From NCBI GenBank assembly GCA_019694215.1, contig JAIBCK010000033.1, positions 1 through 34,250 on the forward strand: DNA of 34,250 nt, read 5' to 3'. The translations under genes and the position numbers were made by a program. The notes under the pieces were generated by a model. That model ran no database searches, was not told where the DNA came from, and was given only the letters and a program-made list of their open reading frames with translations. Below, one piece after another: positions 1 to 16,448 of the stretch (the first letter of the stretch is position 1; every line of letters begins with the position of its first letter). The DNA is from Thermoflexales bacterium (GTDB taxonomy: Bacteria > Chloroflexota > Anaerolineae > J036 > Brachytrichaceae).

Positions 1-484
1 GCGCTCCCACCCACGAGGTGCCGGCCTCCGCGGCAGGCGCGCCATCGCGCCCCCGGATGACGGCGCGGAACTGGCCATCGGGCGTGCGAGACACGGCGGT
101 GAGCAGGTTGATGACCGGCTTCAACGCGCCGGCGGGCAGGGCGTGCACGCCGGCGACCTGCGCGTCGCGCACCTCGGCCACTGCGAGCAGGTCGTGCTGC
201 GCGCCGAGCGGGGCGCTGAACAGATAGCCGCGACCGGCGACCAGCGCCTGACGCAGCGCCTCGCGCAGCGCCTCGCCCTCGCCGCGCACAACGATCAGTG
301 GCCTAAACAGATCGAGGCCGGTCTGGCACACCGCGACGACGGCCCGCGGCGCACCCTCCTGTGGATGCACAAAGAGGCGCGTCCGGCGCGCGTCATGTTC
401 GAGCGCGTAGTACGCCCCGACCGCATCCTCCGGCCCCCGCCCAAACAACGCGGCTACCCGCGCGCGCGGCTCCTGCGCCGTCAA
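1..484 (-). CDS. Probable GNAT-like acetyltransferase, N-terminal part (runs off left edge)
   Basis: Open frame of 161 codons that leaves the window at its left end, so the C-terminal part is missing. The TTG start at 484 overlaps the stop of the upstream TPR gene (TTGA) and has AAGGTG five bases ahead, which decides the start. Visible stretches include YYALEHD, RTRLFVHP and CQTGLDLFRPLIVV, followed near the edge by PVINLLTAVSRTPDGQF and EAGTSWVG. This pattern resembles, from memory, GNAT-type proteins of Chloroflexota with a non-catalytic N-terminal half; the acetyl-CoA binding motif would lie outside the window, so the family call is an inference. The 4-base overlap implies translational coupling with the TPR protein. 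No membrane segment is visible. Confidence 0.5.
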   Translation of the reverse strand, partial: MTAQEPRARVAALFGRGPEDAVGAYYALEHDARRTRLFVHPQEGAPRAVVAVCQTGLDLFRPLIVVRGEGEALREALRQALVAGRGYLFSAPLGAQHDLLAVAEVRDAQVAGVHALPAGALKPVINLLTAVSRTPDGQFRAVIRGRDGAPAAEAGTSWVGA

Positions 485-1659
485 CGCGTCACCTTGCACT
501 TGCGGAACCCGGACGCGGTGTATTCCTGCACGTAGTCGCTTGCGGGCATCAGCGTGAGCGCCTTGCGCCAGGCCTCGACGGCCTGCGGGCAGTTGTCGGC
601 CGACACGTTGAAATACGCGAAGCCGTAGAAGATGTAGTCATTGGCGGTGATGGTCTGGCTCAGGGCCTGCGCGGTGGTCACCGCGCGGGTGTAGTCGACG
701 ATGGCGTTCTCATACAGGCGCGCGTTGAAGTTGGCCTCGCCGCGGCGCGCAAAGGCCGTGTAGCGGGTGGGATCGATCTCGATCGCCTTGTTGAGCGCTT
801 CCAGGGCCTTGTCCGCCTCGCCCAGCACGGCGTGCGTTGCGCCCTTGCGCTCCCATGCCTCGGCATACAGCGGATCGACGGAGATGGCCTGATCGAAATA
901 GAAGATGGCCTTTGTGCCAACGCCCAACGCAGCATACACACGCCCAAGCGCGAGCAGGACGTGCGGCAGGTTTGGGTTGATCTGCAGGGCGCGCTCGTAA
1001 TACACCACGGCCTGGCTGTAGTTGGTGGCCATCTCGTAGGCGTAGCCGAGGTTGCGATACGCGTCGACGTTTTGAGGATCGAGCTCGACGGCGGTGCGGG
1101 CCGTCTTGACGGCCTCGGTGTAGTTGGCGTTGTCGGCCAGGGCCTCGGCCAGATAGGCCTGCGCGGTGCTGTTGGCCGGGTCGAGGGCCACCGCCTCGCG
1201 GCAGCTTGCCAGGGCCTCGCTCACCTTGCCCAGCCAGTCCTGCACGAGGCACAGGCCGGCCCGGGCCAGCGCGTCGCGCGGGGCAAGCTGCACCATCTTG
1301 AGGGCGCGCGATTCGGCCTTGCTCGCCTGGCCGGAGAACACCAGCAGGCGCACGATCTGGAACTGCAGCGGGATGTCGTTGGGCTTGCGGCGCAGGGCCT
1401 GTTCGTAGATGGGCAGCGCCTTGCGGTAGTTGCCCGTGTCGCGGATGTCGTCGGCTTCCCTGGCAAAGCTCTCGACGCTGCGCGTGGCGGTGGGGGTGGG
1501 GGCGGGCGTCGCCGCGACGGGGATGAGGCTGAGCGCGTTGCCCAGGCGCGTCTGGATCAGCACATAGGCGCCCAGCGCGAGGGCGGCCAGCACCAGCAGC
1601 AGCCCCCAGGGGGGGCCGGCGTTGCGCCGGCGGCGGCGGGAGTCACCTCTCAGAACCAC
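481..1659 (-). CDS. Membrane-anchored TPR repeat protein
   Basis: 392 residues. An Arg-rich cytoplasmic start (SRRRRR) is followed by one hydrophobic helix at about residues 17-36, a short Ala/Pro/Thr linker (ATPAPTPTAT) and then roughly eight tetratricopeptide repeats from residue 65 to the end. Typical TPR signatures are visible, such as GNYRKALPIYEQALRRKPND, YSQAVVYYERALQINPN and ADKALEALNKAIEIDP. The topology predicts an outward-facing, single-pass anchored scaffold for protein-protein contacts; no enzymatic motif is seen and the partner is unknown. The start is GTG at 1659, with no Shine-Dalgarno site but a TAACAT hexamer six bases upstream, consistent with a leaderless transcript. The downstream gene overlaps its stop. 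A TPR fold is secure, the biological role is not. Confidence 0.85.
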   Translation of the reverse strand: MVLRGDSRRRRRNAGPPWGLLLVLAALALGAYVLIQTRLGNALSLIPVAATPAPTPTATRSVESFAREADDIRDTGNYRKALPIYEQALRRKPNDIPLQFQIVRLLVFSGQASKAESRALKMVQLAPRDALARAGLCLVQDWLGKVSEALASCREAVALDPANSTAQAYLAEALADNANYTEAVKTARTAVELDPQNVDAYRNLGYAYEMATNYSQAVVYYERALQINPNLPHVLLALGRVYAALGVGTKAIFYFDQAISVDPLYAEAWERKGATHAVLGEADKALEALNKAIEIDPTRYTAFARRGEANFNARLYENAIVDYTRAVTTAQALSQTITANDYIFYGFAYFNVSADNCPQAVEAWRKALTLMPASDYVQEYTASGFRKCKVTR

Positions 1660-1665
1660 GCCCCG

Positions 1666-1671
1666 ATGTTA
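1666..1671 (-). promoter_or_regulatory. Candidate -10 element for leaderless TPR mRNA
   Basis: TAACAT on the minus strand, six bases before the GTG start. No convincing -35 hexamer is seen. It follows the same spacing as several other starts in this window. Confidence 0.35.
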
Positions 1672-1781
1672 GCAGGGGCGGATGAGGCCTTCGCAAACGG
1701 CGCCTGAGCGCGCCGCCAGGCGGGCGGGCACCACCGCGCCAATCCCACAGGCTGGCGCGGCGGCACCCGGATCGATCCGGT

Positions 1782-2042
1782 CTACGAAGCGGCCGGCTTC
1801 TCGCCGTCCGCCTGAAAAAGCATGTCGCCCAGCAGCTTCTCGACGGCCATGGTGTGGCTGTCGAAGCCGTGCGCCTTGAAATACTCGGAATTGCAGTGCC
1901 ACTGGCCATGGTCGAAGGTGACCACATACTCGCTGTTGTCACCGCGCACGACGACCTGCAGGTTGAGGAACGTGAAGCGCTCTCGCTCGTTGGCGTATCG
2001 ATGCGCTTTCTCGACCTTGCCGATGTAGCTTGAGTCAATCAT
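1782..2042 (-). CDS. Small SWIM-zinc-finger-like protein with degenerate metal ligands
   Basis: 86 residues, start ATG at 2042 with AAAGGAG 11 bases ahead. The N-terminal half (KVEKAHRYANERERFTFLNL) is followed by two strand-like stretches and the segment WHCNSEYFKAHGFDSHTMA at about residues 48-66. The position of the residues matches the SWIM finger pattern CxCx(n)CxH, but only the first Cys and the final His are kept; the second Cys reads Ser and the third Asp. SWIM fingers usually bind one zinc and mediate DNA or protein contacts; here metal binding is doubtful. The gene has its own promoter and a structured leader with a terminator, so its expression is probably conditional. The family call is from pattern memory, not a search. 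Confidence 0.5.
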   Translation of the reverse strand: MIDSSYIGKVEKAHRYANERERFTFLNLQVVVRGDNSEYVVTFDHGQWHCNSEYFKAHGFDSHTMAVEKLLGDMLFQADGEKPAAS

Positions 2043-2202
2043 TGTTGTCTACACTCCTTTGATTCGGGTCGGTCCCGGAGGAACCGCCCGGCGACTTGCC
2101 AACAAAAAAGCGCGTCGCAAGGGTGCGCGCGCTTGTTTCCCAAACCGGGTATGGGTCGCCCGAAGCTGGCAGGGGTATCTTCAACGCCTCGAAGCTCCAC
2201 AT
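2035..2202 (-). CDS. Possible leader ORF upstream of the SWIM-like gene
   Basis: A 55-codon frame opens with ATG about five bases after the predicted transcription start of the 2214-2241 promoter and ends with a TGA that overlaps the start of the SWIM-like gene by eight bases. Its start reads MWSFEALKIPL and the terminator U-run is translated as part of TRFFVGK. There is no Shine-Dalgarno site, but the position would suit leaderless initiation. No homology is recognised and it may be a chance frame. If translated, ribosomes would pass straight through the terminator hairpin at 2104-2134. Confidence 0.2.
   Translation of the reverse strand: MWSFEALKIPLPASGDPYPVWETSARTLATRFFVGKSPGGSSGTDPNQRSVDNND
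2065..2090 (-). promoter_or_regulatory. Leader hairpin just upstream of the ribosome binding site
   Basis: On the minus strand CGGGCGGTTCC pairs with GGGACCG-A-CCCG around a TCC loop: 11 pairs, one of them a G-U wobble, with a single bulged A. It ends four bases before the AAAGGAG of the SWIM-like gene. No U-run follows, so it is more likely a translational or mRNA-processing element than a terminator. Confidence 0.5.
2104..2134 (-). terminator. Intrinsic terminator within the leader
   Basis: On the minus strand AAGCGCGCGCA, loop CCCT, TGCG, bulged A, CGCGCTT, then the U-run TTTTTT, whose first two bases close the stem, followed by G. The stem has 11 pairs. It lies about 75-105 bases after the predicted transcription start and 60 bases before the downstream start codon, which is an attenuator position. 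Confidence 0.7.
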
Positions 2203-2207
2203 AGATT
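2104..2207 (-). ncRNA. Candidate structured leader RNA / small RNA of about 100 nt
   Basis: The segment from the predicted transcription start (about 2207) to the end of the terminator U-run (2104) would form a discrete RNA of roughly 104 nt. Besides the terminator it contains short self-complementary stretches (CTTC...GAAG; GGGCGACCC; GTTTGGGAAAC) that could form an aptamer-like fold. I could not match it to riboswitch families whose core motifs I know (for example fluoride, ZTP, c-di-GMP, T-box) nor to SRP RNA. Whether it acts as a cis attenuator or a free small RNA is open. Confidence 0.35.
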
Positions 2208-2213
2208 GATCTG

Positions 2214-2241
2214 ATTTTAACCCGCTGCGGACGGATGTCAA
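2214..2241 (-). promoter_or_regulatory. Strong sigma70-type promoter
   Basis: Minus-strand TTGACA (2241-2236), 16-base spacer, TAAAAT (2219-2214). The -35 is perfect and the -10 is five of six. It is the best promoter match in the window and fires toward the SWIM-like gene. Confidence 0.75.
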
Positions 2242-2284
2242 CCAAAATGGCGGCGGCCGAAAACTTCGGGCCCACAATACGGGC

Positions 2285-3868
2285 ATGAGCACTTCCCCAC
2301 GCGCGCTGATCATCGGGGCGGGCATCGGCGGCCTCGCCCTCGGCATCCGTCTGCGCGCCCTCGGGCTCCCAACGACGATCCTGGAGAAGCACAGGGAGCC
2401 CGGCGGACGCGCCGGCGTGCTGCGCGAAAGCGGTTTTACCTGGGACATGGGCCCGACCGTCATCACGGTGCCCGGGTTCTTGGATGCGCTTTTTGCGTTG
2501 GGCGATGCGCCGGACCCGCTCGGCGGCGCGGACTTCCCGCCCATCCCCGCCACGCTGGCCGGGGCGGGGACGCGCCCGGCCTCAACAACGCGCTATGTCG
2601 ACCTGCGCCCGGTCGTGCCGTTCTATCGCATCTTCTTCGATGACGGCAGCTTCTTTGATTTCGACGGCGACCCCGAGGGCATCCGCGCCCAGGTGCGCAA
2701 GCTCGCCCCGCAGGACCTCGAAGGCTACGCGCGCTTCGAGCGCGACGCGCGGGCGATCTTCGAGCGCGGCTTTCTCAAACTGGGCTTCACCTACTTTGGC
2801 ACTCCCCTCGACCTGGCCCGCGTCGTGCCCGACCTGCTGCGGCTGGACGCCGTGCGCGGGCTCTTTCGCTTCACACGCAAGTATTTCTCCAGCGACAAGC
2901 TCCGGCGCGTCTTCAGCTTCGAGCCGCTGCTGATCGGCGGCAACCCGCTCACCGTCCCCGCGCTCTACGCGATGATCCACTTCGTCGAGCGCAGCTGGGG
3001 CGCGCACTACGCCATCGGCGGCACCGGCGCGCTCGTCCGAGCGCTGGCGCGCAAGTTCAAGGACCTGGGCGGCGAGCTGCGCGTGAACAGCGAGGTCGTG
3101 GCGGTCAATACGGCGCCGGCCCGGCCCGGCAAGCCGCGCGTCAGCGGGGTCACGCTGGCCTCGGGCGAGCACCTCGATGCCAGCGTGGTGGCGTCAAACG
3201 GCGACTATGCGCGGTTGTATCTCGACCTGGTGGCGCGCCGCGACCGACGCATCAACGCCGACTGGCGGATCAAGTCCATGCGTCAGTCCATGTCCGCCTT
3301 TGTGTGCTACTTTGGTTTCCGCGCCGAGGGGCTGGCGCTGAACCTGCGCCATCACAACATCCTGCTGGGGGAGCGCTACGAGGCGCTGCTGCGCGACCTC
3401 TTCGACCGCAAGGTGCTGCCGGATGACGCCTCGCACTACGTCTACCTGCCCACGATCAATGATCCCAGCCTGGCCCCGCCCGGCCACCACGCCGGCTACA
3501 CGCTCATCCCCGTGCCCAACAACGCCTCCGGCATCGACTGGGCCACGGCCGGCCCGGCCCTGGCCGACCGCGCCCTGCACGAGCTTGAGGCGCGTGGTTA
3601 CCTGCCCGAGTTGGGCGCGCGCTTGGTCGCGCGCCGCTTCATCACGCCCGATCATTTCGCGCGCGGGCTCAACAGCCACCTCGGCAACGCCTTTGGCCCC
3701 GAGCCGGTGCTGACGCAGACGGCCCTGCTGCGCCCGCACAACCGCAGCGAGGATGTGCGCGGGCTGTATCTGGTCGGGGCCGGCACGCAACCCGGCGCGG
3801 GGATGCCGGCGGTGATGATGTCGGCGCAGATCACCGCCCGCCTGATCGCGGAGGACCTGCACCTGTGA
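2285..3868 (+). CDS. Phytoene desaturase-family FAD oxidoreductase (CrtI-like)
   Basis: 527 residues. The FAD-binding Rossmann motif GAGIGG is at residues 11-16, followed by [13 protein letters not shown] and TWDMGPTVI, which are characteristic of CrtI-type carotenoid desaturases/isomerases. The C-terminal signature [17 protein letters not shown] is at about 497-513. These enzymes use FAD to introduce double bonds into phytoene or related carotenes at the membrane; the exact substrate cannot be told from sequence. About 20-25 extra residues rich in Pro/Gly/Ala follow residue 72, compared with the usual family layout. No crtB or other carotenoid gene is in the window. The start has no Shine-Dalgarno site; CACAAT lies six bases before the ATG. 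The gene overlaps yqeC by four bases, suggesting coupled translation. Confidence 0.85.
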
Positions 3869-4620
3869 CGTCGGCGTCGGGAGCCCTTGCGGGCTGCCGC
3901 TGCGTCGCGCTGGTCGGCGCGGGCGGCAAGACCTCGCTGGCCTGGACGCTGATGCAGCACAGCCTCGACGCCGGCCAGCGGGCGATCTACACCACCACCA
4001 CGCACACCCTGCTCCCCGCGGATGGGGCGTTTGACCGCGTGCTGGTCGAGCCCGACGCCGCGCGCGCCGCGCGTTTGCTGGCGGAGGACCGTACGTGGCG
4101 CAGCGCCTGGCTGGCGGCTGCGGTCGTGGGCGGGTTCGAGGGCGAAATTCACAGTGCCATGCCCCTGACGCGGGTCAAAGCAAAGGGTTATGCGCCCGAC
4201 GCGGTGCGCGCCCTGGCGGCGCTGGACGCGGTGCGCATCGTCGAGGCCGATGGCGCGCTGCGGCGGTGGATCAAGGCCCCGGCCGACCACGAACCCGTGT
4301 TGCCGCCAGAGCTCGACGCCGTCATCGTGGTGGCCTGTCTTGACGCGTTGGGGCAGCCGCTCGATGCGCGGATCGCGCACCGCCCGGAGCGGGTGGCCGA
4401 GGAGACCGGGCTGCGGCTCGGCGAGCGCCTGACGGCGGCGGCGCTGGTGGCGCTGCTGTGCTCACCCGGCGGTGGGCTGAAGGGGGTCACCGGCAACGTC
4501 CGGCGTATCGCTGCGCTCAGCCGCCTGCGGGCGCCGCGCGAGCGCGATATCGAGGCCGCGCTGCGCGCCCACGGCTTTGACGCGGTGCTGGACTATCCCT
4601 TGGTCGCGGCGTCGATGTAG
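3865..4620 (+). CDS. yqeC: YqeC-like putative selenium-dependent hydroxylase accessory protein
   Basis: 251 residues, GTG start inside the stop of the preceding gene (GTGA). A P-loop-like GAGGKTS is at residues 18-24, the TTTTHTLLP segment follows, and [22 protein letters not shown] at about 127-148 matches the most conserved YqeC block. [12 protein letters not shown] and [11 protein letters not shown] are also family-typical. YqeC is known as an accessory protein of selenium-dependent molybdenum hydroxylases (neighbour of yqeB and mocA in other genomes); its biochemistry is poorly defined. No molybdenum hydroxylase, selD or mocA gene is nearby, so its client enzyme is elsewhere or it has another role. 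Its last 28 bases overlap the convergent RDD gene. Confidence 0.8.
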
Positions 4621-5375
4621 CGGAGCAGGCTGAGGTCGTCCATGCCGCGCAGCTCATCCGCCGCGTCCACCAGCGTCGCACGCGCCTCCTCGGCGAGCAG
4701 GTGCGCCAGGGCCGGGGCATTCTTGAGCTGCGGCATGCGTTGAAGGAAATCGCGAATGTTTAGCACTTGTTCGTTGGACAAGGCGCGCTGCCCGCTGATC
4801 GCCACCGAGGGGGCCGGCATGAGCATCGCATACGTGAAGGTGAGGCCGACCGCGTTGATCGATTGTGATTCGCGGACGACGATCGTGCGCGCGGCGAGGT
4901 CGCCCAGGCGTTGGGCGCGTGGCGAGAGCAGCATCGCGATCAACCCGAGCGGGTTCAGAATCGGCAGGCCGTCCACCGGACGGAGCAGGTTGCGCAGCAG
5001 GACATTGGTGAAGGTGAGCGCGCTGCCATCGTCGCGCACCGTGCGCAGCCCAAGGATCGACTTGCCCACAGTCTGGCCGTTCATCCTCCATTCCTGCAAG
5101 AGCAGAAAGCCGATGTCCAGCAGAAAGTAGGCCAGTACAAGCACCGTAGAGTACCAATCGTAGCCATAGAGGTTGGCATTCACGGATAGTACGTTCACCA
5201 GAATGAACAGACCGACCTTGAGCGTCGTCAACAGCGCCATGTCGATCAGGTGGGCGTAGAAGCGCGTGCCGATATCGGCAATTTCGTAGCGCAGGGCGAT
5301 GTGTTCGGGCAGGCGCGCGGTGAGCACCCCCAGCGCGGCATTGGCATCCCCTCCGGGGCGGGATCGACGTGTCAT
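4593..5375 (-). CDS. RDD family membrane protein
   Basis: 260 residues from the chosen start; upstream in-frame ATGs at 5384 and 5438 are possible. The RDD domain spans about residues 30-175: ADIGTRFYAHLIDMALL carries the first Arg and Asp, two or three hydrophobic helices follow, and RLGDLAARTIVV carries the later Arg/Asp pair. A C-terminal cytosolic tail with Leu-rich helices (about 205-260) is not part of the domain. RDD proteins are polytopic membrane proteins of mostly unknown transport role. The start at 5375 is favoured because CATAAT lies seven bases upstream and no Shine-Dalgarno site exists. In related genomes RDD genes accompany SpoIIM/DUF4129/MoxR clusters, and here it is divergent from that operon by 137 bases. 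Confidence 0.85.
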   Translation of the reverse strand: MTRRSRPGGDANAALGVLTARLPEHIALRYEIADIGTRFYAHLIDMALLTTLKVGLFILVNVLSVNANLYGYDWYSTVLVLAYFLLDIGFLLLQEWRMNGQTVGKSILGLRTVRDDGSALTFTNVLLRNLLRPVDGLPILNPLGLIAMLLSPRAQRLGDLAARTIVVRESQSINAVGLTFTYAMLMPAPSVAISGQRALSNEQVLNIRDFLQRMPQLKNAPALAHLLAEEARATLVDAADELRGMDDLSLLRYIDAATKG

Positions 5376-5382
5376 GGCGGCC

Positions 5383-5388
5383 ATTATG
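5383..5388 (-). promoter_or_regulatory. Candidate -10 element of the RDD gene
   Basis: CATAAT on the minus strand, seven bases before the ATG at 5375. No clear -35 is present. It supports the shorter start. Confidence 0.35.
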
Positions 5389-5457
5389 GCCCAGCCCCGC
5401 CGACCTGCCTGTCGAACTGTCCAACAAGTTTTTGTCAAGTCTTGGCCGGGGTGGGAC

Positions 5458-5463
5458 TACAAT
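5458..5463 (+). promoter_or_regulatory. Candidate -10 element of the SpoIIM-MoxR operon
   Basis: TACAAT, 49 bases before the ATG at 5513. The best -35 (TTGTCA, 5432-5437) is 20 bases away, longer than ideal. It lies in the divergent gap between the RDD gene and the operon. Confidence 0.35.
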
Positions 5464-5512
5464 CGCAAACGGGTGCCAGCCGGGAGCGGCAGGCGCAACG
5501 TGCCGATCAGAC

Positions 5513-6469
5513 ATGAATCCTGAAGCGTTTATCAAAGGGCGGGTGCGCGACTGGAACCGACTGGCCGAGCTCGTCCCCAGGGCGGGCAAGCCCGGTGGGC
5601 TGGCGTCGTCTGAGGCGCAGGAGTTCGCCACGTTGTATCGCGCCGTGTCCGACGACCTCGCCTACGCGCAGCGTGAGTTTGGCCGCCACAGCATGACGCG
5701 CTACCTCAATGCGCTGACGGCCTCGGCGGCGCAGACCCTGTATCGCTCCCACGAGCCCGTCGCGCGTTCGATCGCGCGCTTCTATGCCGAGACGCTGCCC
5801 GGCTTGTTTGTCGAGTTGCGGCCCTACGTCATCGCTGCTGCAATCCTGTTCTTCGGAAGCGCCCTGCTTGCCTTCGCGATGGTGTATGTCCGGCCCGATG
5901 ACGGCGTCTCCGTACTGGGGTATTCGCTGACCATCCGTATCCGCGAAGGCGTGCAGTGGTGGAAGCAGTTGAACGGGATAAATCAGGTCGGTTCGGCGAC
6001 GATCATGACGAACAACCTGCGGATCGCCCTCATGAGTTTTGCAGGAGGCATGACGGGGGGCTTCTACACGGTCTACCTCGCGCTGCTCAACGGCTTTCAC
6101 CTTGGCGCGATCTTCGGATATTCGGCCGCGGTGGCGAACCCCTGGCCGCTGGCCGAATTTGTGGTCGGACACGGCGTGCTGGAGCTGAATGAAATCGTCT
6201 TCGCCACGGCGTGCGGGCTGGCGCTCGGCCGCACATTGCTGCAACCGGGTCTGTCCTCCCGCGCCGTCGCGCTGGGGCGCATGGGCCGGACCGCCGTCCT
6301 GTTCATGGTGGGAACGGCGCCAACCCTCGTCGTCGCCGGTCTGATCGAGGGCTTTGTCTCACCGTCCGATGTCGTTCCGCCGGTGATCAAGGTCGCCCTG
6401 GGCGTTGGGACGGGCGTGGCGTTGTATGCCTACCTGCTGGTCTTTGCGCGACGGAGGACGCGGCGATGA
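5513..6469 (+). CDS. Stage II sporulation protein M (DUF95/SpoIIM) family membrane protein
   Basis: 318 residues. An amphipathic cytosolic N-terminus (MNPEAFIKGRVRDWNRLAELV, about 1-90) is followed by about six hydrophobic helices from residue 97 onward. Family-typical signatures are the polar loop NNLRIALMSFAGGMTGGFYTVY and GHGVLELNEIVFA. In Bacillus SpoIIM is part of an engulfment complex, but the wider family occurs in non-sporulating bacteria next to MoxR/DUF58/DUF4129 genes, as here, where its function is unknown. No sporulation genes are visible. The ATG at 5513 is chosen because the MNPE...RDW start is the family-like one; the frame is open further upstream but without family-like sequence. 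The next gene overlaps it by four bases (ATGA). Confidence 0.85.
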   Translation: MNPEAFIKGRVRDWNRLAELVPRAGKPGGLASSEAQEFATLYRAVSDDLAYAQREFGRHSMTRYLNALTASAAQTLYRSHEPVARSIARFYAETLPGLFVELRPYVIAAAILFFGSALLAFAMVYVRPDDGVSVLGYSLTIRIREGVQWWKQLNGINQVGSATIMTNNLRIALMSFAGGMTGGFYTVYLALLNGFHLGAIFGYSAAVANPWPLAEFVVGHGVLELNEIVFATACGLALGRTLLQPGLSSRAVALGRMGRTAVLFMVGTAPTLVVAGLIEGFVSPSDVVPPVIKVALGVGTGVALYAYLLVFARRRTRR

Positions 6470-7305
6470 TGCCATTGGCCTGGTTGCGTCCATTGACCTC
6501 GAGCGAGCTGTTGGATGTGCCCTTCAAGCTCATGCGCGCGCGATGGGGGACGCTGACGCTGCTTCATTTGCTGTTTGGGGCACCGGTCTTGCTCCTGCAG
6601 ATCGTGCTCGTGCTGCCGTGGCTCACCCGTCTGCCGCTCTGGTCCTTCAATCTAACGCTGACGGGGCTGCCCACCTTGGTTTTCACGCAGCCGTGGCCGT
6701 TTGTGGGTGCGCTTGCACTGGGGGCGTTGCACGCCTTTCCGCAGGCGGCCGCCGCCCGGGTCATTGCGAATCAGGTCCTGGATGCTGCGCCGCTGGGCGT
6801 GCGCCAGGCCGTGGCCGTGACGTGGCGCCGCGCCCTGACAGCCCTCCCGGCCGCGTTGCTTCTGCGTCTCCTCGAGGCGGCCGCGCTCCTGGCCTGGCTG
6901 CTGCCGTTTGGCTGGCTGCTGTCCATTTTCGCGGGCTTGCCGATTCTGTGCATGCTTTCCTTTGCCCTCGAAGTCGTTGTGCTGGAAGGGGCATCACCGT
7001 GGCGCGCCCTGCGCCGCTCGGCGGCCCTGACGCAGGGCTTGCGCATGCGCCTGGCGGCGAATGCCTTTTGCTCGATGGTCGTCCTGTTTGTCGCGCACGT
7101 GCTGCCCATCCTGCTGCAGGTGTTGCTCGGCTTTCTTGCCGAAGTCAACGAAGCGACCCAAACGGTGCTCGCGTTTGGCACGCTGGCGACCATGATCGTC
7201 TGCCTCTCGAGCTGGCCGACGTGTTCGCGGGTGCTGGCCTATCTCGAGGCGCGCGTGCGCAAAGAGGGCCTTGACCTGCAGATGGCGGTGGAGGCGCGAC
7301 GATGA
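6466..7305 (+). CDS. Polytopic membrane protein of the MoxR operon
   Basis: 279 residues, starting at overlapping ATGs (MMPLAWLRPLTSSELLDVPFKL) with GGAGG about nine bases ahead and a 4-base overlap with the SpoIIM gene. Five or six long hydrophobic segments are visible at about 28-52, 71-88, 116-147, 146-170, 196-220 and 225-245. The opening RPLTSSELLDVPFKLMRARW resembles the start of membrane proteins annotated as glycerophosphoryl diester phosphodiesterase membrane-domain-like, but no catalytic residues of such an enzyme are present. Position suggests it belongs to the membrane complex served by MoxR. Function unknown. Confidence 0.75.
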   Translation: MMPLAWLRPLTSSELLDVPFKLMRARWGTLTLLHLLFGAPVLLLQIVLVLPWLTRLPLWSFNLTLTGLPTLVFTQPWPFVGALALGALHAFPQAAAARVIANQVLDAAPLGVRQAVAVTWRRALTALPAALLLRLLEAAALLAWLLPFGWLLSIFAGLPILCMLSFALEVVVLEGASPWRALRRSAALTQGLRMRLAANAFCSMVVLFVAHVLPILLQVLLGFLAEVNEATQTVLAFGTLATMIVCLSSWPTCSRVLAYLEARVRKEGLDLQMAVEARR

Positions 7306-7898
7306 CCCCTGAACAGGAACTGGAGCGGCTGCGTCAGATCCTGGCGCGCATGAATCCCACGGTTGCGCCGCCGCCGCCGAATACGCCCGTGAGGGATTCC
7401 TCCCCACTCCCGGATGTCTCCTTTCTCGTCACGCTCGGGAACATCATTCTGGTCGTGGTCGCGGTGGTTGCGATTGCGCTCGTCCTGGCAGCGGTCGTGG
7501 CCTTCCTGCGCGGGCGGATTCGGCGTGAAAAGACCGTCGCAGCATCCAGCACGCCCCAGACCGACGCCGTGCTGGTCGAGGCCACCCAGCATGCCGACGA
7601 CGGGGACATGCGCGAAGCGATGCGAAAACTGTATCTGGCCACCCTGACCCTGCTCGATGAGCGCGGCATCCTGATCCTTGACCCAAGCCGCACCAACCGC
7701 GAGATCCTGCGCGCGCTCGGGTCGCGCCCCGCCCTGCAGGACAGCCTGCTGCCGGTGGTGGACACGTTTGATCCGGTCTGGTACGGGCACAAGCCGCTCG
7801 TGCGCGAGCGCTTTGACGCCTTCAAGGCCAACATCGAGACGGCCCGGCAGCTGTCCGAGCCCGCGCCGGCACCAGTACCCGCAGGAGGCCGCGCATGA
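7302..7898 (+). CDS. DUF4129 domain membrane protein
   Basis: 198 residues. A short Pro-rich stretch (PTVAPPPPNTPV) precedes one transmembrane helix at about residues 42-70, followed by a cytosolic DUF4129 domain at about 95-185. Domain signatures are LYLATLTLLDERGILILDPSRTNREILRAL and VVDTFDPVWYGHKPL. DUF4129 proteins are commonly encoded between SpoIIM-like and MoxR/DUF58 genes, and in some families the domain is fused to transglutaminase-like enzymes; its own activity is unknown. The ATG overlaps the previous stop and the TGA overlaps the next ATG, both by four bases, so translation of this stretch is probably coupled. Confidence 0.85.
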   Translation: MTPEQELERLRQILARMNPTVAPPPPNTPVRDSSPLPDVSFLVTLGNIILVVVAVVAIALVLAAVVAFLRGRIRREKTVAASSTPQTDAVLVEATQHADDGDMREAMRKLYLATLTLLDERGILILDPSRTNREILRALGSRPALQDSLLPVVDTFDPVWYGHKPLVRERFDAFKANIETARQLSEPAPAPVPAGGRA

Positions 7899-9118
7899 GA
7901 ATCCTGCGTTGGTCAACCTGTGTGCTGGCGTTGTTGGCTGCCTTTCTCATGGCGACGCCGATCGCGGCGCAGAGACCCACTCCGGCCGTCACGAACAGCT
8001 ATGACAACCGGACGAACCAGGGTCTGTGGGCGTTTGGCAAGTGGTTGCGCGAGATCGGATATGCGCCCGAACGCATCGAGCGACAGCGGGCAACCTCACC
8101 CTTTGTCATCCCAGGCAACACGCGGGGCCTGATTGTGCTGAGCGCGCGCCAGATTCCGGACCAGGATGCCCTCACGATCAAGGAGTTCGTGCGGAGTGGC
8201 GGGACGCTGGTCTTCAATGCCCAGACCGCCCCGGCGCTCAACGCAGCGCTGGGCGTGCGTCTCGATACCAGCCGGGGCGGTGCCCCTCACGTCATCGTCA
8301 GCGACCGCTACTTTGCCCCGCGCGGCAGCGAGATCTATTGTGACGCAACCGGCGCCTTGATGGACACCGTCGAGGCCGAAGCGGGCGCCGAGCCAACTGC
8401 CATCACGACACTCCGGTCGGGCACTCCAACGATGGTGACCTTTCGGCTTGGCCTGGGGAGGGTCTATGCGACGGTGGCCCCCTGCATGTGGACCAACGGG
8501 CAACTCCAAAATGCAAACGCCGCCCTGCTCACGCGGGCGATCTTCCGCTTTCTGCCCGCTGGCAGTGTGATTGCGTTTGACGAGTATCACACATTTGCCA
8601 GTCCCGCGGTGCTGGTCTATGACCCCGATGATTTCACGACACAGGGGCGTCGCCTTGACTACACCGACCAGGCGACGCCGACGATCGGCATCAGTTCCCA
8701 GCTCACCCTTACCTCATGGGTGACGGCGGTGACGGCGAGCGCGCTGATCGTGCTCGCGTATGCGCTGCTAAACGGCCGGCGCATGGGCCGCGTCCTGCGG
8801 CCGCGCCTGGAGCTTCTGCCCCGACTGGCGTCCGACCAGGCGGTGGCCCTGGCGGGGCTGGTGATGCGGGCGCGCGATTGGCGTGGCCCGATCGAGCAAC
8901 TGCGCGCCCGGCTCAAGCGCGCCATCGGCCGGCCGCTCGGGCTGGATTCGGGCACACCCGACGCCGCGTTTGTCGCGCAGGTGCGGCTCGGTCGCCAGGA
9001 CATCCCGGTCGAGCCGCTGGCGGACCTGCTGGCCGACCTGGCTGCGCCGGACATCAAACGGCGGGAAGTGATTGACTTCGACCGCGAAGTCAGCGCGATG
9101 ATCGAACGATATCGCTGA
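7895..9118 (+). CDS. DUF4350 domain protein, copy A
   Basis: 407 residues. A signal peptide (LALLAAFLMATPIAA, cleavage near residue 25) leads to an extracytoplasmic domain of about 245 residues that starts TNSYDNRTNQGLWAFGKWLREIGY and has the GLIVLSARQIPDQDALTIKEFVRSGGTLVF block typical of DUF4350 (a ThuA/glutamine-amidotransferase-like fold). FDEYH at about residues 229-233 is also typical. A transmembrane helix at about 274-293 (VTAVTASALIVLAYALL) precedes a 110-residue cytosolic tail (DWRGPIEQLRARLKRAIG ... DFDREVSAMIERYR). The type I topology would let it pass information from outside to the MoxR ATPase; that is inference. GGAGG precedes the start, which overlaps the DUF4129 stop. It is a close paralogue of the gene at 9287. 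Confidence 0.85.
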   Translation: MRILRWSTCVLALLAAFLMATPIAAQRPTPAVTNSYDNRTNQGLWAFGKWLREIGYAPERIERQRATSPFVIPGNTRGLIVLSARQIPDQDALTIKEFVRSGGTLVFNAQTAPALNAALGVRLDTSRGGAPHVIVSDRYFAPRGSEIYCDATGALMDTVEAEAGAEPTAITTLRSGTPTMVTFRLGLGRVYATVAPCMWTNGQLQNANAALLTRAIFRFLPAGSVIAFDEYHTFASPAVLVYDPDDFTTQGRRLDYTDQATPTIGISSQLTLTSWVTAVTASALIVLAYALLNGRRMGRVLRPRLELLPRLASDQAVALAGLVMRARDWRGPIEQLRARLKRAIGRPLGLDSGTPDAAFVAQVRLGRQDIPVEPLADLLADLAAPDIKRREVIDFDREVSAMIERYR

Positions 9119-9200
9119 GGTGAAAACATGAGCGCCAGCGAAGCAACCGACCGCAAGCGGTCCGAGACCGCAAACGCCATCCGCGTGGAGACCAGTCTGC
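8741..9200 (+). repeat. Direct repeat, copy A (DUF4350 3' part plus moxR 5' end)
   Basis: Aligns without gaps, at a constant offset of 1413 bases, to 10154-10613. It contains long identical runs, including a shared segment around the rare-looking CTA codon in CTAAACGGCCGGCGC and the TGAGGTGAAA junction. By eye about nine of ten bases match up to the stop codon, then similarity falls off over some 70 bases. It marks a tandem duplication or later gene conversion. Confidence 0.8.
9128..9200 (+). pseudogene. Vestigial 5' end of moxR left by tandem duplication
   Basis: The segment begins with the same ribosome binding site and spacing as moxR (TGAGGTGAAAACATG here, TGAGGTGAAATCATG there) and encodes MSASEATDRKRSETANAIRVETS, of which 11 of 23 residues match the MoxR start at 10541. 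After about 70 bases the similarity ends and no Walker motif follows. It is read as the broken 5' end of a former moxR copy lying between the two DUF4350 genes. The frame remains open into the second DUF4350 gene. Confidence 0.7.
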
Positions 9201-9286
9201 ACGAACCTGTTGCAGTGGGTCGCCGACGGGCCCGCCCGACGGCTCTCGGGACCAGCACCGGCCCGGGTGGCGCCCGGCGCCGAGAG

Positions 9287-10531
9287 ATGAGTATCCTGCG
9301 TTTGACGACGTGCATGGCGGCGTTGCTGTGTTTCTGCCTTCTGGCAGCTCCGCTTGCCGCGCAGTATCCAAGTTTGAGAGTCACGGACAGCTACGACTCT
9401 TCGACAGAAGGCGGGTTTTGGGTGTTTGGAAAAGGATTGCGTGCGTCCGGCTATGAAGTGGAACGCATCGAGAACCAGTCGTGGCTCTCTGCGTTCGTCA
9501 TCCCACGCAACACGCGCGGCCTGATCGTGCTGACCCCGCACGACATGGCTGAATCCGACGCCAACAGGATCAGGGCCTTCGTCCGGCAAGGTGGGACGCT
9601 TCTCTACAACGCCAGCGCGCAGACGCACCTCAACGAATCGCTTGGGGTTCAAGTCGATCGCACCTTGGTCGGCTATCCGCAGTTCGTTTCCACGGACGAC
9701 TACCTCGTTCACCGCGGCAGCCAGATCGACTGCATGGGGTCGGGCGTGGTCGACAAGGTCGATGTGGAACCCGACGGGCATCCCACGGCGCTCACGACGT
9801 TGCAGTCGGGTCGCCCAACCCTCGTGACGTTCCGCCTGGGCCTTGGAAGGGTCTATGCGACGACAACCCCGTGTATGTGGAGCAATGGACGCGTCCGCGA
9901 TGACAACCCGGCCCTGCTCACACGGGCGATCTTCCAGCCGCTGCCGACGGGGAGCCTGATCGTGTTTGATGAATATCACAATGGGAGCGATCCCGGTGTG
10001 CCACGCCTGGCCGCCGATGATTTCGCGACCGAGCGATTTCGCCGCGAGCTCGCCAGCGGCGCAGGCGTGTGGCCCTGGTCCGAGTTCACGCTCGAAACGC
10101 CAAAGCATGGCGACCTTGCCTTGTCGCCGTGGCTGGCGGTGGTGGGGGCGGCCGCGCTGATCGTGCTCGCGTATGCGCTGCTAAACGGCCGGCGCATGGG
10201 CCGCGTCCTGCGGCTGCGCCCGGAGCGTCACCCCCGATCGTCGTCCGACCAGGTGGCGGCCCTGGCGGGGCTGGTGGTGCGGGCCCGCGATTGGCGCGGT
10301 CCGAGGGAGCACCTGCGCGCCCGGCTCAAGCGCGCGATCGGCCGGCAACTCGGGCTGGATTCGGGCGCCCCCGACGCCGCGTTTGTCGCGCAGGTGCGGC
10401 TCCGTCGCCAGGACATCCCGGTCGAGCCGCTGGCGGACCTGCTGGCCGACCTGGCTGCGCCGGACATCAAGCGGCGGGAAGTGATCGACTTCGACCGCGA
10501 AGTCAACGAGATGATCGAACGATATCGCTGA
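9287..10531 (+). CDS. DUF4350 domain protein, copy B
   Basis: 414 residues from the chosen ATG, with the same layout as copy A: signal peptide (ALLCFCLLAAPLAA), extracytoplasmic DUF4350 domain (TDSYDSSTEGGFWVFGKGLRASGYEVERIE, GLIVLTPHDMAESDANRIRAFVRQGGTLLY, FDEYH), a transmembrane helix (VVGAAALIVLAYALL) and a cytosolic tail nearly identical to copy A. The extracytoplasmic half is clearly more diverged, suggesting a shifted ligand or partner. The start is ambiguous: the frame is open from ATG 9128, which has the better ribosome binding site (GGTGA) inherited from the moxR remnant, and would add 53 residues before the signal peptide. ATG 9287 gives the start that matches copy A. MoxR follows after nine bases. 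Confidence 0.85.
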   Translation: MSILRLTTCMAALLCFCLLAAPLAAQYPSLRVTDSYDSSTEGGFWVFGKGLRASGYEVERIENQSWLSAFVIPRNTRGLIVLTPHDMAESDANRIRAFVRQGGTLLYNASAQTHLNESLGVQVDRTLVGYPQFVSTDDYLVHRGSQIDCMGSGVVDKVDVEPDGHPTALTTLQSGRPTLVTFRLGLGRVYATTTPCMWSNGRVRDDNPALLTRAIFQPLPTGSLIVFDEYHNGSDPGVPRLAADDFATERFRRELASGAGVWPWSEFTLETPKHGDLALSPWLAVVGAAALIVLAYALLNGRRMGRVLRLRPERHPRSSSDQVAALAGLVVRARDWRGPREHLRARLKRAIGRQLGLDSGAPDAAFVAQVRLRRQDIPVEPLADLLADLAAPDIKRREVIDFDREVNEMIERYR

Positions 10532-10540
10532 GGTGAAATC

Positions 10541-11488
<948 letters not shown>

Positions 11489-11503
11489 GCGGAGCACACC
11501 ATC

Positions 11504-12892
11504 ATGTTGACGCGGCGCGCGCTTGCGCTTCTGTTGCTTGGCCCTGTGCTGCTGGCGTTCCTGGACGTGTGGAGCGGCATGGGCATCGTGGCGGCGGGCG
11601 TCTTTGGGCTCGCGGTCCTGGCCGTCGTGGTGGACCTGGCCCTGGCGCCGCGCGCGCGCGCGCTGAGCGTGACGCGCGCCCACGAGCCCTACCTCACCAT
11701 CGGTCTGAGCAACGACATCGGGCTGCGCATCGAGACCCGCGCGACGCGGCCGACCCAACTCATCGTCCGCGATGAAGTGCCGGATGAATTTGAGCTGCGC
11801 CGCCCGATCCTGGACAGCGCCGACGTGTGGCCGATCGAGCCCGGCGAAGCCGTGCGGCGCGGCCCGATCCCCGTCCGACCCGGACAGACCGTGACCCTGC
11901 GCTACCGGGTGATCCCCCCACGCCGTGGCGACTACGGCTTTGGCGCAGTCACGATCCGCGCGCGGGGGCCGCTGAAGCTCGCCTCGCGCCAGCACCGTTA
12001 TGCGATTGGCGCGACGGTGAAGGTCTTCCCCAACCTGCTCGACACGCGCAAATACGACCTGCTCTCGCGCAAGGGGCGGTTGCAGGAGCTCGGCCTGCGC
12101 CGCCGCCGCGCGCTGGGCGAGGGCGAATTCGAGAGCCTGCGCGACTACCAGATCGACGACTCGCCGCGTCGCATCGACTGGCGCGCCACTGCGCGGCGGG
12201 GCAAGCTCACCGTCCGTCAGCTGCAGACCGAGCGCAGTCAGAACATCGTGGCGGTGCTGGACTGTGGGCGTTTGATGGATGCCCCGGCCTGGCAGGAGCC
12301 GCCCGCCACCCTGCGGCGGCGCATGGAGCTGCGCAAGCTCGATGCCGCCGTCAACGCCGCGCTCATGCTGGGGTTCGTGGCCGGGCAGCGTGGTGATCGC
12401 GTCGGTGCGCTGGCATTTTCCGACCGGGTGCTGAAATACATCGAGCCCAAGACCGGGCGCGGGCAGTTCTACCGCCTGCTGAACAGCTTGTATGACGTTC
12501 AGGCCGAGACGATCGAAAGCGACTACACGCGCGCTTTCGCATATCTTTCCGCCCAGCAGCGCCGCCGCGCGCTGATCGTCGTCTTCACCGATCTGTCCAG
12601 CGGCCTGGCAGCGCGCCAGCTCGTCGCGCGGCTGGCGCCCTTCAAGCAGCGCCATCTCACGCTGCTGGTCACGATCAGCGACCCGAGCATGGTCCGTCTG
12701 GCGCAGAGCACGGGCAGCGGCGAGCGCGAGGTGCACGAGCGGCTGGCCGCGCAGCAGATGCTCGAGGAGCGCCAGCGTCTGCTCGACTTCGTCGCGGAGA
12801 ATGGCATTCTGACGTTGGACGTGCCGGCCGATGCGCTGTCCATCTCGGTCGTCAACCGCTATCTCGACCTGAAGTCGCGCCAGGTGATCTGA
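11504..12892 (+). CDS. DUF58 domain protein, VWA-like partner of MoxR
   Basis: 462 residues. Two hydrophobic helices at about 5-20 and 25-47 anchor the protein; a beta-rich region at about 55-175 (PVRPGQTVTLRYRVIPPRRGDYGFG) precedes the DUF58 core FESLRDYQIDDSPRRIDWRATARRGKLTVRQ at about 207-237. A VWA-like fold follows, beginning IVAVLDCGRLMDAP with Asp253. The metal-site motif DxSxS of classical VWA domains reads DCGRL, so metal-dependent adhesion is doubtful. DUF58 proteins are the standard adaptor partners of MoxR ATPases. It lies 15 bases after moxR and is the last gene of the operon, ending 11 bases before the convergent dnaN stop. Confidence 0.9.
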   Translation: MLTRRALALLLLGPVLLAFLDVWSGMGIVAAGVFGLAVLAVVVDLALAPRARALSVTRAHEPYLTIGLSNDIGLRIETRATRPTQLIVRDEVPDEFELRRPILDSADVWPIEPGEAVRRGPIPVRPGQTVTLRYRVIPPRRGDYGFGAVTIRARGPLKLASRQHRYAIGATVKVFPNLLDTRKYDLLSRKGRLQELGLRRRRALGEGEFESLRDYQIDDSPRRIDWRATARRGKLTVRQLQTERSQNIVAVLDCGRLMDAPAWQEPPATLRRRMELRKLDAAVNAALMLGFVAGQRGDRVGALAFSDRVLKYIEPKTGRGQFYRLLNSLYDVQAETIESDYTRAFAYLSAQQRRRALIVVFTDLSSGLAARQLVARLAPFKQRHLTLLVTISDPSMVRLAQSTGSGEREVHERLAAQQMLEERQRLLDFVAENGILTLDVPADALSISVVNRYLDLKSRQVI

Positions 12893-12903
12893 CGCCGCCG
12901 CGC

Positions 12904-14037
12904 CTAACGGGCGAGGTGCATCGGCATCACGACGTGCAGGAAGCCGTCATCGCCGATGGGGCGGATGACGCCGGGCGCCTTGGGCGCCGAGGTCTCGATG
13001 GCCAGCTGCGGCGTGTCAACGACCGAGGCGACATCGACCAGGAAGCGCGCGTCAAAGCCGATTTCGACGCCGGGGCCGTTCACGATGCCCTCGAGCTCGC
13101 TCTGGTTGTCGCCCGTCTCCTGCGCCTGCGCGGTGATCTTGACCTTGCCCGCGCCATCCTCACCGGGCTCGATTTGAATGCGGGCGAGGTTGTTCGAGTC
13201 GCGCGCAAAGACGCTGGCCTGCTTGCAGGCCTTGAGCAGCTCGGCGGTGTTGACGACGGTGCGGGTGTTGTAGGCCCGTGGGATGACGTTGGCGTAGTCG
13301 GGGAAGCGCTGGTCGATGAGCTGCGCGATGACGTCGGCGTGGTCGAGGTGGAACAGCGCCTGCGCGCCCGAGGGCGTGACCGTGATGGCGACCGGCTCGG
13401 TCTGATCGCCGATCAGGCGTCCGACCTCGGCCACGGCCTTGGCCGGGATGAGGATCGCGAGCGGGTCGGTCACCGGCGACTTGAGCGCGCCGCGGCACTC
13501 GCTGACGCGGAAGCCATCCGAAGCGGCCAACGTCAGGGATTGACCCTCAATCCGGGTCAGCACGCCGGTGAGCATGGGGCGGTTCTCGTCGGTGGCCGCG
13601 GCGAAAACGACCTTGTTGATCATCTTGCGCAGCACGTCCGGGTCGACATACGCCACGTTGGTCGGCGTGAAGGTCGGGATGATCGGGAACTCCTGCGCAT
13701 CGATGCCCTTGATGTTGTTGTCGGTGCGGCCGCACATCACGCGCAGGCTCTGGGTGCGGATGTTCAAATCCAGTTGGGCGACATCCGACGGCAGCAGCGA
13801 AACCAGCTCGGAGAAGGTGCGGGCCGGGACGCAGATCGCGCCTTCGCTCTCGATCTTTGCGCCGATCCAGCAGTTGATCGCCAGCTCGAGGTTGGTCGCC
13901 GCAATGCGCAGCCGGCCATTCTCGGTGGCCAGCAAAATATGCGTGAGCACGGGCAGCGGGGCGCGATTGCCGGCCACGGCGCGCGCGACGATGCCAAGGC
14001 CCTTGGCCAGGTTTTCCTGCATGACCGAAACTTTCAT
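12904..14037 (-). CDS. dnaN: DNA polymerase III beta subunit (sliding clamp)
   Basis: 377 residues, standard length. The start MKVSVMQENLAKGLGIVARAV, the middle block DENRPMLTGVLTRIEGQSLTLAASDGFRV and the C-terminal VMPMHLAR are diagnostic for the bacterial clamp, which forms a ring of two three-domain subunits around DNA and tethers polymerase. The DNA-binding and clamp-loader surfaces cannot be judged by eye, but no part is missing. GAGGAG lies about ten bases before the ATG, and a TACAAT hexamer 46 bases upstream may give it its own promoter in addition to read-through from the LarA-like gene 55 bases away. It is not next to dnaA, recF or gyrB in this window. Confidence 0.95.
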   Translation of the reverse strand: MKVSVMQENLAKGLGIVARAVAGNRAPLPVLTHILLATENGRLRIAATNLELAINCWIGAKIESEGAICVPARTFSELVSLLPSDVAQLDLNIRTQSLRVMCGRTDNNIKGIDAQEFPIIPTFTPTNVAYVDPDVLRKMINKVVFAAATDENRPMLTGVLTRIEGQSLTLAASDGFRVSECRGALKSPVTDPLAILIPAKAVAEVGRLIGDQTEPVAITVTPSGAQALFHLDHADVIAQLIDQRFPDYANVIPRAYNTRTVVNTAELLKACKQASVFARDSNNLARIQIEPGEDGAGKVKITAQAQETGDNQSELEGIVNGPGVEIGFDARFLVDVASVVDTPQLAIETSAPKAPGVIRPIGDDGFLHVVMPMHLAR

Positions 14038-14083
14038 TGCGATGAGACTCCTCTACGGGCGGACAAAGATCTGAGTGCGGGGT

Positions 14084-14089
14084 ATTGTA
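14084..14089 (-). promoter_or_regulatory. Candidate -10 element for dnaN
   Basis: TACAAT on the minus strand in the 55-base gap before dnaN, giving a leader of about 40 bases that contains GAGGAG. No good -35 is seen at 16-18 bases. Confidence 0.35.
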
Positions 14090-14092
14090 GCG

Positions 14093-15433
14093 TCACAAGG
14101 CGCCATCGGCCCAGGCGCCAAAGGGGTTGTCGGCGTCGTCGCCGTCCCCGGGGTCACGGGCACCAAAGCCTGCCACCGGGAGCAGCCCCGCGCCCTGCGG
14201 GACGAGCAGCGCGCGCGGGCGATGGCCCACCCAGGCCTCGGCCAGCTCGGCGGCCTCGGCCAGCGAGCGGGCGAGCGTGGCGCTCCAGGGGTCCCGGCCG
14301 GGGGCATCGGGTTGCCACATCACGACATGCGCGCCGGCGGCCAGCGATTGGGCCAGGCGATACGCGCGCTCCTCACCGGGTGCCAGGCCGCGGGCGCGCA
14401 GCTGCCGCAGCAGCATCTCGGCCGAGGTCGCATCGGTCAGCGCGCGTTCAAAGGCCACTGCGGCGGGGTCCTCGTCGCCGCCGCCCTGCGCGATGATGAC
14501 GCCCTGCGGCCGCAGCACGGCGCGCGGGGCGAGCGTCGCCGCCGCGATGTCGCGGCTGGCGTGATAGAGCGTGCGGCGGTCGTCCGGCGCGTCGGCGAGC
14601 ACGACGACGTCATAGGCATCCCCGGGGGCCTGCGGCGAGAAACGCGCCGCGGCCAGGCGCGCCAACGCATCGTGGGTGGGGGCGGGCGCCCCGGCCAGCA
14701 CCAGCAGCGCCGTCCCGTCCGCCGGATGCAGCAGGGCGTTGACGACGAGGAGCAGCCCGGCCCGGCGCGCAACCTCGCGCAGCAACCGCTGGTAGACATT
14801 GTCCGTCAGATTGCCCGAGCGCGTGGCCGGCTGCTCCAGAAAGGCCGCGCTGTGGAGGGCCAGCCGCGTTTCCGGATCGGCGCAACCCACGGCGACGCTG
14901 TCGGCGCCGCCGGTGTAGCCGGCAAACTCGTCGGCCAGCACCCCGCCCGTGGCCAGCAGCAGATCGGCCTCAAAGGCTCGGTGGTGAAGACGAACCGTAA
15001 TGCCATCCACGGCGCCGAGCGAGACGAAATCGGCGCGTGCCGCGGCCGGCACGTCGACCAGGCCGCCCACCCGCCCGGCCAACGCGGCGCGGTCCGCCGC
15101 GCTCAGCCCGGGCCGGTCGCCGCCGGCGAGGAGCAGGGCGATGTCGGCGGCGCGCACGCCCGCGCGCGCCAGCGCGTCCAGGAGGACGGGCAGGATCAGT
15201 GCATCCGGGCTGCCGTTGAGGGCCGCGCCGCAGGCGATCGCCACGCGGCTGCCGGGGCCGGCCAGCTCCTCGACCGTCAGCGCGGCGACGGGGGTCGCCA
15301 GGGCGCGTTCGGCCGAGATGGGCTCGTCGCGGTCGCCATCGCCGGGCTCGAGCGCGTCGATGCGCCAGCCGCGCGGCAGGGCCGGTGGTGCAGCCGGGGG
15401 CTCGGGCAGGGAGGGCAGGGGCCGCTCATCCAC
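14093..15433 (-). CDS. LarA (DUF2088) family protein lacking the catalytic residues
   Basis: 446 residues, close to the LarA length. An N-terminal domain contains VAIACGAALNGSPDALILPVLLDALARAG and LLLAGGDRPGLSAADRAALA; ATGGVLADEFAGYTGGADSVAVG at about 161-183 corresponds to the LarA cofactor and substrate site. Nickel-pincer lactate racemases use two His and one Lys (H107, H173, K183 in the Thermoanaerobacterium enzyme; Lys binds the pincer cofactor). The aligned residues here are Asp106, Asp168 and Asp178, with the same 10-residue spacing between the last two. Racemase activity by the known mechanism is therefore unlikely; what it does is unknown. No larB/larC/larE gene is visible. The GTG start has TAGAAT six bases upstream and no Shine-Dalgarno site. 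Its C-terminal third is Ala-rich and weakly conserved. Confidence 0.75.
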   Translation of the reverse strand: MDERPLPSLPEPPAAPPALPRGWRIDALEPGDGDRDEPISAERALATPVAALTVEELAGPGSRVAIACGAALNGSPDALILPVLLDALARAGVRAADIALLLAGGDRPGLSAADRAALAGRVGGLVDVPAAARADFVSLGAVDGITVRLHHRAFEADLLLATGGVLADEFAGYTGGADSVAVGCADPETRLALHSAAFLEQPATRSGNLTDNVYQRLLREVARRAGLLLVVNALLHPADGTALLVLAGAPAPTHDALARLAAARFSPQAPGDAYDVVVLADAPDDRRTLYHASRDIAAATLAPRAVLRPQGVIIAQGGGDEDPAAVAFERALTDATSAEMLLRQLRARGLAPGEERAYRLAQSLAAGAHVVMWQPDAPGRDPWSATLARSLAEAAELAEAWVGHRPRALLVPQGAGLLPVAGFGARDPGDGDDADNPFGAWADGAL

Positions 15434-15439
15434 ACGCCC

Positions 15440-15445
15440 ATTCTA
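15440..15445 (-). promoter_or_regulatory. Candidate -10 element for the LarA-like gene
   Basis: TAGAAT on the minus strand, six bases before the GTG start at 15433, implying a leaderless mRNA. Confidence 0.4.
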
Positions 15446-15577
15446 GCCCGCGGTGGCCGGGGTTGCGGTGAGTTTTGCGGTGGCCCGGGCCGGGCGGCAT
15501 GGCACTCTCATCGACCTCTCACGCACATCACCGGCGATGTCAACGCAGGCATGGTGTATTCGATCCAACCCGCGACC

Positions 15578-15596
15578 GGACGTGTGTCCGTTTTTG
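15578..15596 (+). promoter_or_regulatory. Short hairpin with U-run in the YceI leader region
   Basis: CGGAC, loop GTGT, GTCCG, then TTTTT. The stem is only five pairs, so it is at best a weak terminator or pause site, 30 bases before the YceI-like start codon. I found no convincing promoter in the 15446-15626 gap. Confidence 0.25.
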
Positions 15597-15626
15597 TGCG
15601 GGGGGATCATCCAAGGAGCGAGAGAC

Positions 15627-16367: not shown

Positions 16368-16394
16368 CGGATAAAGACAAGCACCAACCTGCAA

Positions 16395-16428
16395 GAGGCC
16401 CCGATCCAGTCGGGGCCTCGTTCGTTTC
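16395..16428 (+). terminator. Intrinsic terminator after the YceI lipoprotein gene
   Basis: GAGGCCCCGA, loop TCCAG, TCGGGGCCTC: a perfect 10-base-pair stem followed by the T-rich GTTCGTTT. It starts 28 bases after the YceI stop. Confidence 0.85.
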
Positions 16429-16448
16429 CGGGCCTGTCGCGCATGGCG

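Follow-up and report, generated by a model that had tools for sequence, protein, structure and literature searches.

The leader of a small SWIM-like gene in a Thermoflexales bacterium is probably a translation-coupled transcription attenuator, similar to that of pyrBI in Escherichia coli. The gene lies on the minus strand of the window, by which we mean the whole 34,250-nucleotide stretch of DNA analysed here. A short reading frame in the leader, overlooked in an earlier sequence-only reading of the same DNA, is the best clue to how the attenuator works.

Elements of the leader and the SWIM-like protein

Between 2241 and 1782 on the minus strand, the elements follow one another in the order promoter, predicted start A2207, ATG 2202, terminator, second hairpin, AAAGGAG and ATG 2042, corresponding to a leader of about 165 nt and a predicted terminated RNA of about 100 nt.

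2236..2241, minus strand: −35 element TTGACA (from the sequence; exact TTGACA is the rule at orthologues)
2214..2219, minus strand: −10 element TAAAAT, with a 16-nt spacer (from the sequence and orthologues)
2207, minus strand: predicted transcription start, an A 7 nt past the −10 element (from orthologous leaders)
2035..2202, minus strand: putative leader reading frame of 55 codons plus stop, with a near-leaderless ATG at +6 (from family comparison)
2108..2134, minus strand: intrinsic terminator hairpin of 11 bp with one bulged A (from folding; position conserved and compensatory changes in the family)
2104..2109, minus strand: terminator U run of six T, with the AA of the stem able to pair with the first two (from the sequence)
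2065..2090, minus strand: second hairpin of 11 bp with one bulged A, MFE −18.7 (from folding)
2054..2060, minus strand: Shine-Dalgarno sequence AAAGGAG of the SWIM-like gene (from the sequence)
1782..2042, minus strand: SWIM-like gene of 86 codons, with ligands CxS..DxH replacing CxC..CxH (from orthologues and a structure model, pLDDT 87)

The promoter TTGACA-N16-TAAAAT is present at 2241-2214 as the sequence-only reading had claimed, and is the sole promoter-like match within positions 1-20000 of the window. A spacer of 16 nt is usual in the window's family and one of 17 nt in other families. At the predicted start position, A is found in 65% of leaders outside the family, preceded by C or T in 77%. 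The 11-bp terminator stem with its six-U run was also correctly described (AAGCGCG-CGCA / CCCT / TGCG-A-CGCGCTT, 2134-2108; about −17 kcal/mol folded alone, GC core −13.7), as was AAAGGAG at 2060-2054 before the ATG at 2042. The leader frame opens at ATG 2202, 5 nt after the predicted start site, crosses the terminator and extends over the SWIM start codon. The divergent neighbour, at 2285-3868 on the plus strand, encodes an FAD-dependent, amine-oxidase-type oxidoreductase (Pfam Amino_oxidase, 7.9e-23) that resembles phytoene desaturase.

Orthologues of the window protein were found in 56 of 60 relatives, in 253 of 296 genomes of the class (85%) and in 237 of 301 genomes sampled over the phylum (79%); its named relatives belong to Thermoflexales and other Chloroflexota. 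The description of the gene as tiny and SWIM-like holds by homology, with Pfam SWIM (PF04434) matched by 11 of 16 alignment members (best 8.7e-8). The window protein itself has no Pfam hit and carries CNS...DSH, two of the four zinc ligands being replaced. Like SWIM zinc finger proteins of PF04434, orthologues outside the window's family carry CxC..CxH (132/132 in the class and 45/45 further orthologues). Unlike them, the protein stands alone at about 80 aa, and within the window's family CxC..CxH occurs in 0 of 27 members and CxS..DxH in 26 of 27. Since it lacks both a Pfam match and CxC...CxH, the window protein is a SWIM orthologue and at most a putative zinc finger; two of the four zinc ligands of SWIM proteins have been lost in its family, yet the gene and the attenuator have been kept. 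The structure model contains a helix, four strands and two helices, and no solved structure convincingly related by sequence or fold was found. In one genome (G045, locus L061), a tandem pair of SWIM-like units shares one open frame, the zinc ligands of the second unit being degenerate. The SWIM gene has no general conserved neighbour and its downstream genes vary. A literature search, incomplete in coverage, found no report of SWIM genes from Chloroflexi or Dehalococcoides, nor of the leaders preceding them.

Conservation of the promoter and terminator

Single-sequence folding alone makes no case for the leader; comparison across orthologues does. Among 159 distinct orthologous loci of the class, 129 show the order promoter, terminator, gene, and 125 have the promoter/terminator pair upstream of SWIM under a stricter rule. 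The same stricter rule gave five pairs in 789 kb of flanking DNA, four of them SWIM leaders lying further upstream, leaving one elsewhere. Outside the family, the exact sequence TTGACA-N17-TATACT is found in 76 of 107 leaders. As a control within the bacterium's own genome, a pattern search returned nine sites fitting TTGACA-N16-18-TANAAT, and a terminator follows the SWIM site only.

The sequence-only reading had made its case depend on conservation of the stems in related genomes, and the two hairpins differ in this respect. The terminator stem is conserved: in a 20-sequence DNA alignment of the family, 97.5% of cells are paired and four of the eight pairs show changes on both sides. The second 11-bp hairpin exists in the window (2090-2065) and does not look conserved, with no matching strong hairpin seen by eye in the sister species and only slightly better folding than shuffles in the gap regions overall (mean z −0.29). 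It is probably not part of the mechanism. The bulged A in both hairpins, to which the same reading had drawn attention, is likewise present in the window with no sign of conservation, the outer stem being unbroken and free of a bulge in most family terminators.

A further 45 orthologues, sampled mainly outside the class and including one from another family of the window's class (L193), showed the layout in 22 cases by script and in a few more by eye (L204, L215, L235); no promoter-leader-terminator layout was seen in L211, L217, L223, L199, L205 and L225. By script, the layout is thus missing from about one fifth of the orthologues within the class and from about half of the set drawn mainly from outside it. 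In genus g2 of the window's family (L024-L026), the promoter lies directly ahead of the SWIM start codon with no leader or terminator, so that the attenuator has apparently been lost there and the SWIM gene left near-leaderless. No promoter-leader-terminator arrangement was found at L094, L103, L110, L116 and L154 either. In a 12-locus cluster that includes L154, an upstream open frame on the same strand ends near SWIM, which may therefore be transcribed from the upstream gene. Across genomes that are not independent of each other, the attenuator looks very old and conserved across the phylum Chloroflexota. The sequence-only reading had recognised the layout of an attenuator or riboswitch: a transcription attenuator is well supported by conservation in the class, recurrence in other Chloroflexota classes and near-exclusive association with the gene, and a riboswitch is unsupported.

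The leader reading frame and its position

About 70 bases of potentially structured RNA had been proposed upstream of the terminator. This region (2130-2206) folds no better than shuffles (z = −0.16; whole leader, z = −1.68) and holds an open reading frame instead. A metabolite-binding riboswitch or other structured-RNA attenuator would account for a terminator located between promoter and gene and for leader folding slightly above that of shuffles on average (mean z −0.44); it is very improbable, as leader length and sequence vary freely and neither a conserved sequence, an Rfam family nor an antiterminator was detected. Searching Rfam gave no match at the gathering score and, at a permissive E-value, a single chance-level hit (E 3.9); the earlier reading had also failed to match the 5′ part to a known riboswitch class. 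A test for enriched words across leader, frame, stem and gap brought out only ribosome-binding and start signals and the repeated arms of the terminators. Pairing of the leader with the 5′ arm of the terminator was no better than in shuffles (mean z +0.46) and, if anything, less complementary. With no aptamer conservation and no match to a known class, the riboswitch reading is contradicted; lacking conserved non-ribosomal sequence and antiterminator pairing, the leader is probably not a riboswitch.

Ribosome-binding signals take up a defined position ahead of the terminator. Outside the window's family, ATG triplets are most frequent 30-44 nt upstream of the terminator stem, and Shine-Dalgarno cores 48-62 nt upstream. 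Of 107 leaders, 52 have a start with a Shine-Dalgarno sequence at a distance of 30-45 nt ahead of the stem, compared with 10.5 ± 2.9 after shuffling (maximum 20 in 300 shuffles); 30 of the 107 have no start with a Shine-Dalgarno sequence anywhere in the range searched. The frame was analysed in 77 leaders outside the family that have a Shine-Dalgarno sequence and a start located 28-61 nt upstream of the stem (median 39). The starts were picked by a rule (Shine-Dalgarno, ATG preferred) that could favour some frames and is blind to stops. Early in-frame stops (before −15) are found in 3 of the 77 leader frames versus 33 and 12 in two control frames, and 48 leader frames end in the zone from −15 to +28 nt relative to the stem, versus 13 and 18 for the controls. 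The leader frame reaches or crosses the terminator in 74 of 77 cases; it runs past it in 26, as in the window, so the position of the stop is not uniform.

The same distribution is retained in smaller sets. Thinning to SWIM proteins of <65% identity gave early, zone and past counts of 0/19/6 among 25 leaders (controls 13/2/10 and 6/6/13), and loci mainly from outside the class gave 1/17/5 among 23 (controls 7/3/13 and 8/5/10). In the window's family, an ATG lies 6-12 nt after the −10 element in 19 of 22 leaders, that is, at the 5′ end of the RNA. In 18 of these 19, no stop codon interrupts the frame before it reaches or crosses the terminator; the control frames are open this far in 4 and 13. 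Comparison of these sequences shows that the positions of the leader start and stop relative to the terminator are selected, and establishes the promoter, the terminator, the leader frame and the spacing between them as elements of the leader.

Several individual loci deserve mention. Two other strong promoters in the bacterium's own genome (L237, L244) are followed, a few tens of nt on, by an ATG with no clear Shine-Dalgarno sequence, which fits leaderless or near-leaderless starts being common there. At L006 and L023, tandem-repeat-like expansions lie inside the leader, between promoter and terminator. The repeat-bearing 182 nt from start to stem in L006 are open in the leader frame only; the 5′-end frame of L023 is not open through its expansion.

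The encoded peptide appears to drift. Between close pairs, which overlap within groups so that the counts are not independent, leader-frame substitutions number 104 at the first codon position, 123 at the second and 80 at the third, and of the 215 codons that differ, 180 differ non-synonymously; the third-codon-position test for a selected leader peptide was negative. Composition is near that of random frames, with Trp low, Val raised (8.6% vs 4.5%) and no runs of control codons. Since the peptides look unselected, ribosome position rather than peptide sequence seems to matter. An amino-acid-specific attenuator of the trp/his type would also place a short leader frame before a terminator. We regard it as highly improbable: it is contradicted by the codon counts, which show neither codon runs nor strong enrichment of a single amino acid, there is no antiterminator, and the frame reaches into the terminator rather than ending well before it.

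The leader could instead be a separate small transcript, a small RNA or short peptide gene, with SWIM expressed by incidental read-through and the layout held together by gene order only. A terminated RNA of the predicted length would suit such a unit, and a gene ending close to a terminator is commonplace. It is nonetheless improbable: a product acting in trans would require a conserved peptide or RNA sequence, and none was found; no other promoter is recognised for the SWIM gene of the window; and the promoter/terminator pair stays with SWIM across families despite differing downstream neighbours. In addition, ordinary terminators are separated from the stop codon by a much greater distance: those at the 3′ end of the SWIM gene itself, taken as a yardstick, are typically 25-44 nt past its stop, with 3 of 75 in the leader-stop zone.

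Proposed mechanism and significance

From these positions, we infer that a ribosome on the leader blocks termination, and likewise the direction of the response and its input signal. In the proposed pathway, transcription would begin at the near-perfect promoter, and a ribosome would initiate on the leader frame. Over most of the phylum it would do so at a Shine-Dalgarno sequence some 39 nt ahead of the terminator, and in the window's family at the RNA 5′ end. Close behind RNA polymerase, this ribosome would sit on or move through the 5′ arm of the terminator, preventing the hairpin, and the polymerase would read through into the SWIM gene. Where leader translation fails or lags, the hairpin would form and the short RNA would be released. 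The simplest input would be how strongly translation of the leader is initiated or how tightly transcription and translation are coupled, and the SWIM protein might feed back on leader translation. The 55-codon frame of the window and the SWIM start codon overlap, so translational coupling from one into the other may strengthen the effect; such an overlap is found in a few members only.

Precedents come from E. coli, where a terminator near the stop codon of a translated frame is repressed almost completely, termination becomes maximal once the stop-terminator distance exceeds about 27 nt, and uncoupling of translation abolishes the repression (PMC4824070). Attenuation at pyrBI requires coupled translation of its leader (PMC5021804). 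As in the SWIM leaders, the translated pyrL frame overlaps the intrinsic terminator, and coupled translation there prevents the terminator (PMC5021804, PMC4824070). Unlike pyrBI, the SWIM leaders have no enriched T-rich tract before the terminator for UTP sensing by the polymerase: runs of at least four T between start and stem occur in 8 of 77 leaders versus 5.1 after shuffling, with no clear U- or A-tract sensing signal. They also differ from pyrBI in preceding a SWIM gene and not one of pyrimidine synthesis, in being phylum-wide with an unselected peptide, and in the near-leaderless start in the window's family. A pyrBI attenuator proper was thus rejected, on the missing U-rich pause tract and the identity of the downstream gene.

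In the mgtCBR leaders of Salmonella, short leader frames likewise steer termination. Those leaders have alternative stem-loops, adenine runs and proline codons, whereas the SWIM leaders lack alternative pairing and have runs not above expectation.

A stall-inducible attenuator of the vmlR or bmrB type, in which ribosomes slowed by inhibitors or stress hold the terminator open and SWIM is induced, is a related alternative. Bacillus has ribosome-mediated attenuators of this kind, the leader frame here extends to the terminator, and unselected peptides would suit drugs that stall ribosomes at many codons. Antiterminator pairing is a usual part of antibiotic-inducible stalling leaders. Such pairing was not found in the SWIM leaders, and the gene is a near-universal small SWIM protein gene and no recognisable resistance gene, making this alternative unlikely. 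The vmlR, bmrCD and hflX leaders, the last with uORFC-6-1 upstream of hflX (PMC8632094), resemble the SWIM leaders in placing a leader frame and an intrinsic terminator ahead of the gene; that class depends on stalling, and the SWIM leaders differ in lacking alternative structure and in the gene they precede.

We thus favour translation-coupled attenuation by ribosome position. To our knowledge, few attenuators working by ribosome position only have been described outside Proteobacteria and Firmicutes, and none was found described in Chloroflexota in a literature of incomplete coverage. Translation-coupled attenuation as such is already known; the SWIM leader switch is apparently undescribed so far. 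More tentatively, the leaders may form a Chloroflexota-wide translation sensor that has no sequence signal, in which the presence of a coupled ribosome alone is read out to set the level of the orphan SWIM protein; SWIM might then act on translation or coupling, possibly feeding back.

The attenuator is tied across the phylum to one gene of obscure function, while its peptide is apparently free to drift. For a phylum that has been little studied, the SWIM leaders represent a natural test of how transcription and translation are coupled. They also offer a first handle on the SWIM protein: a read-out of translation seems to determine how strongly it is expressed.
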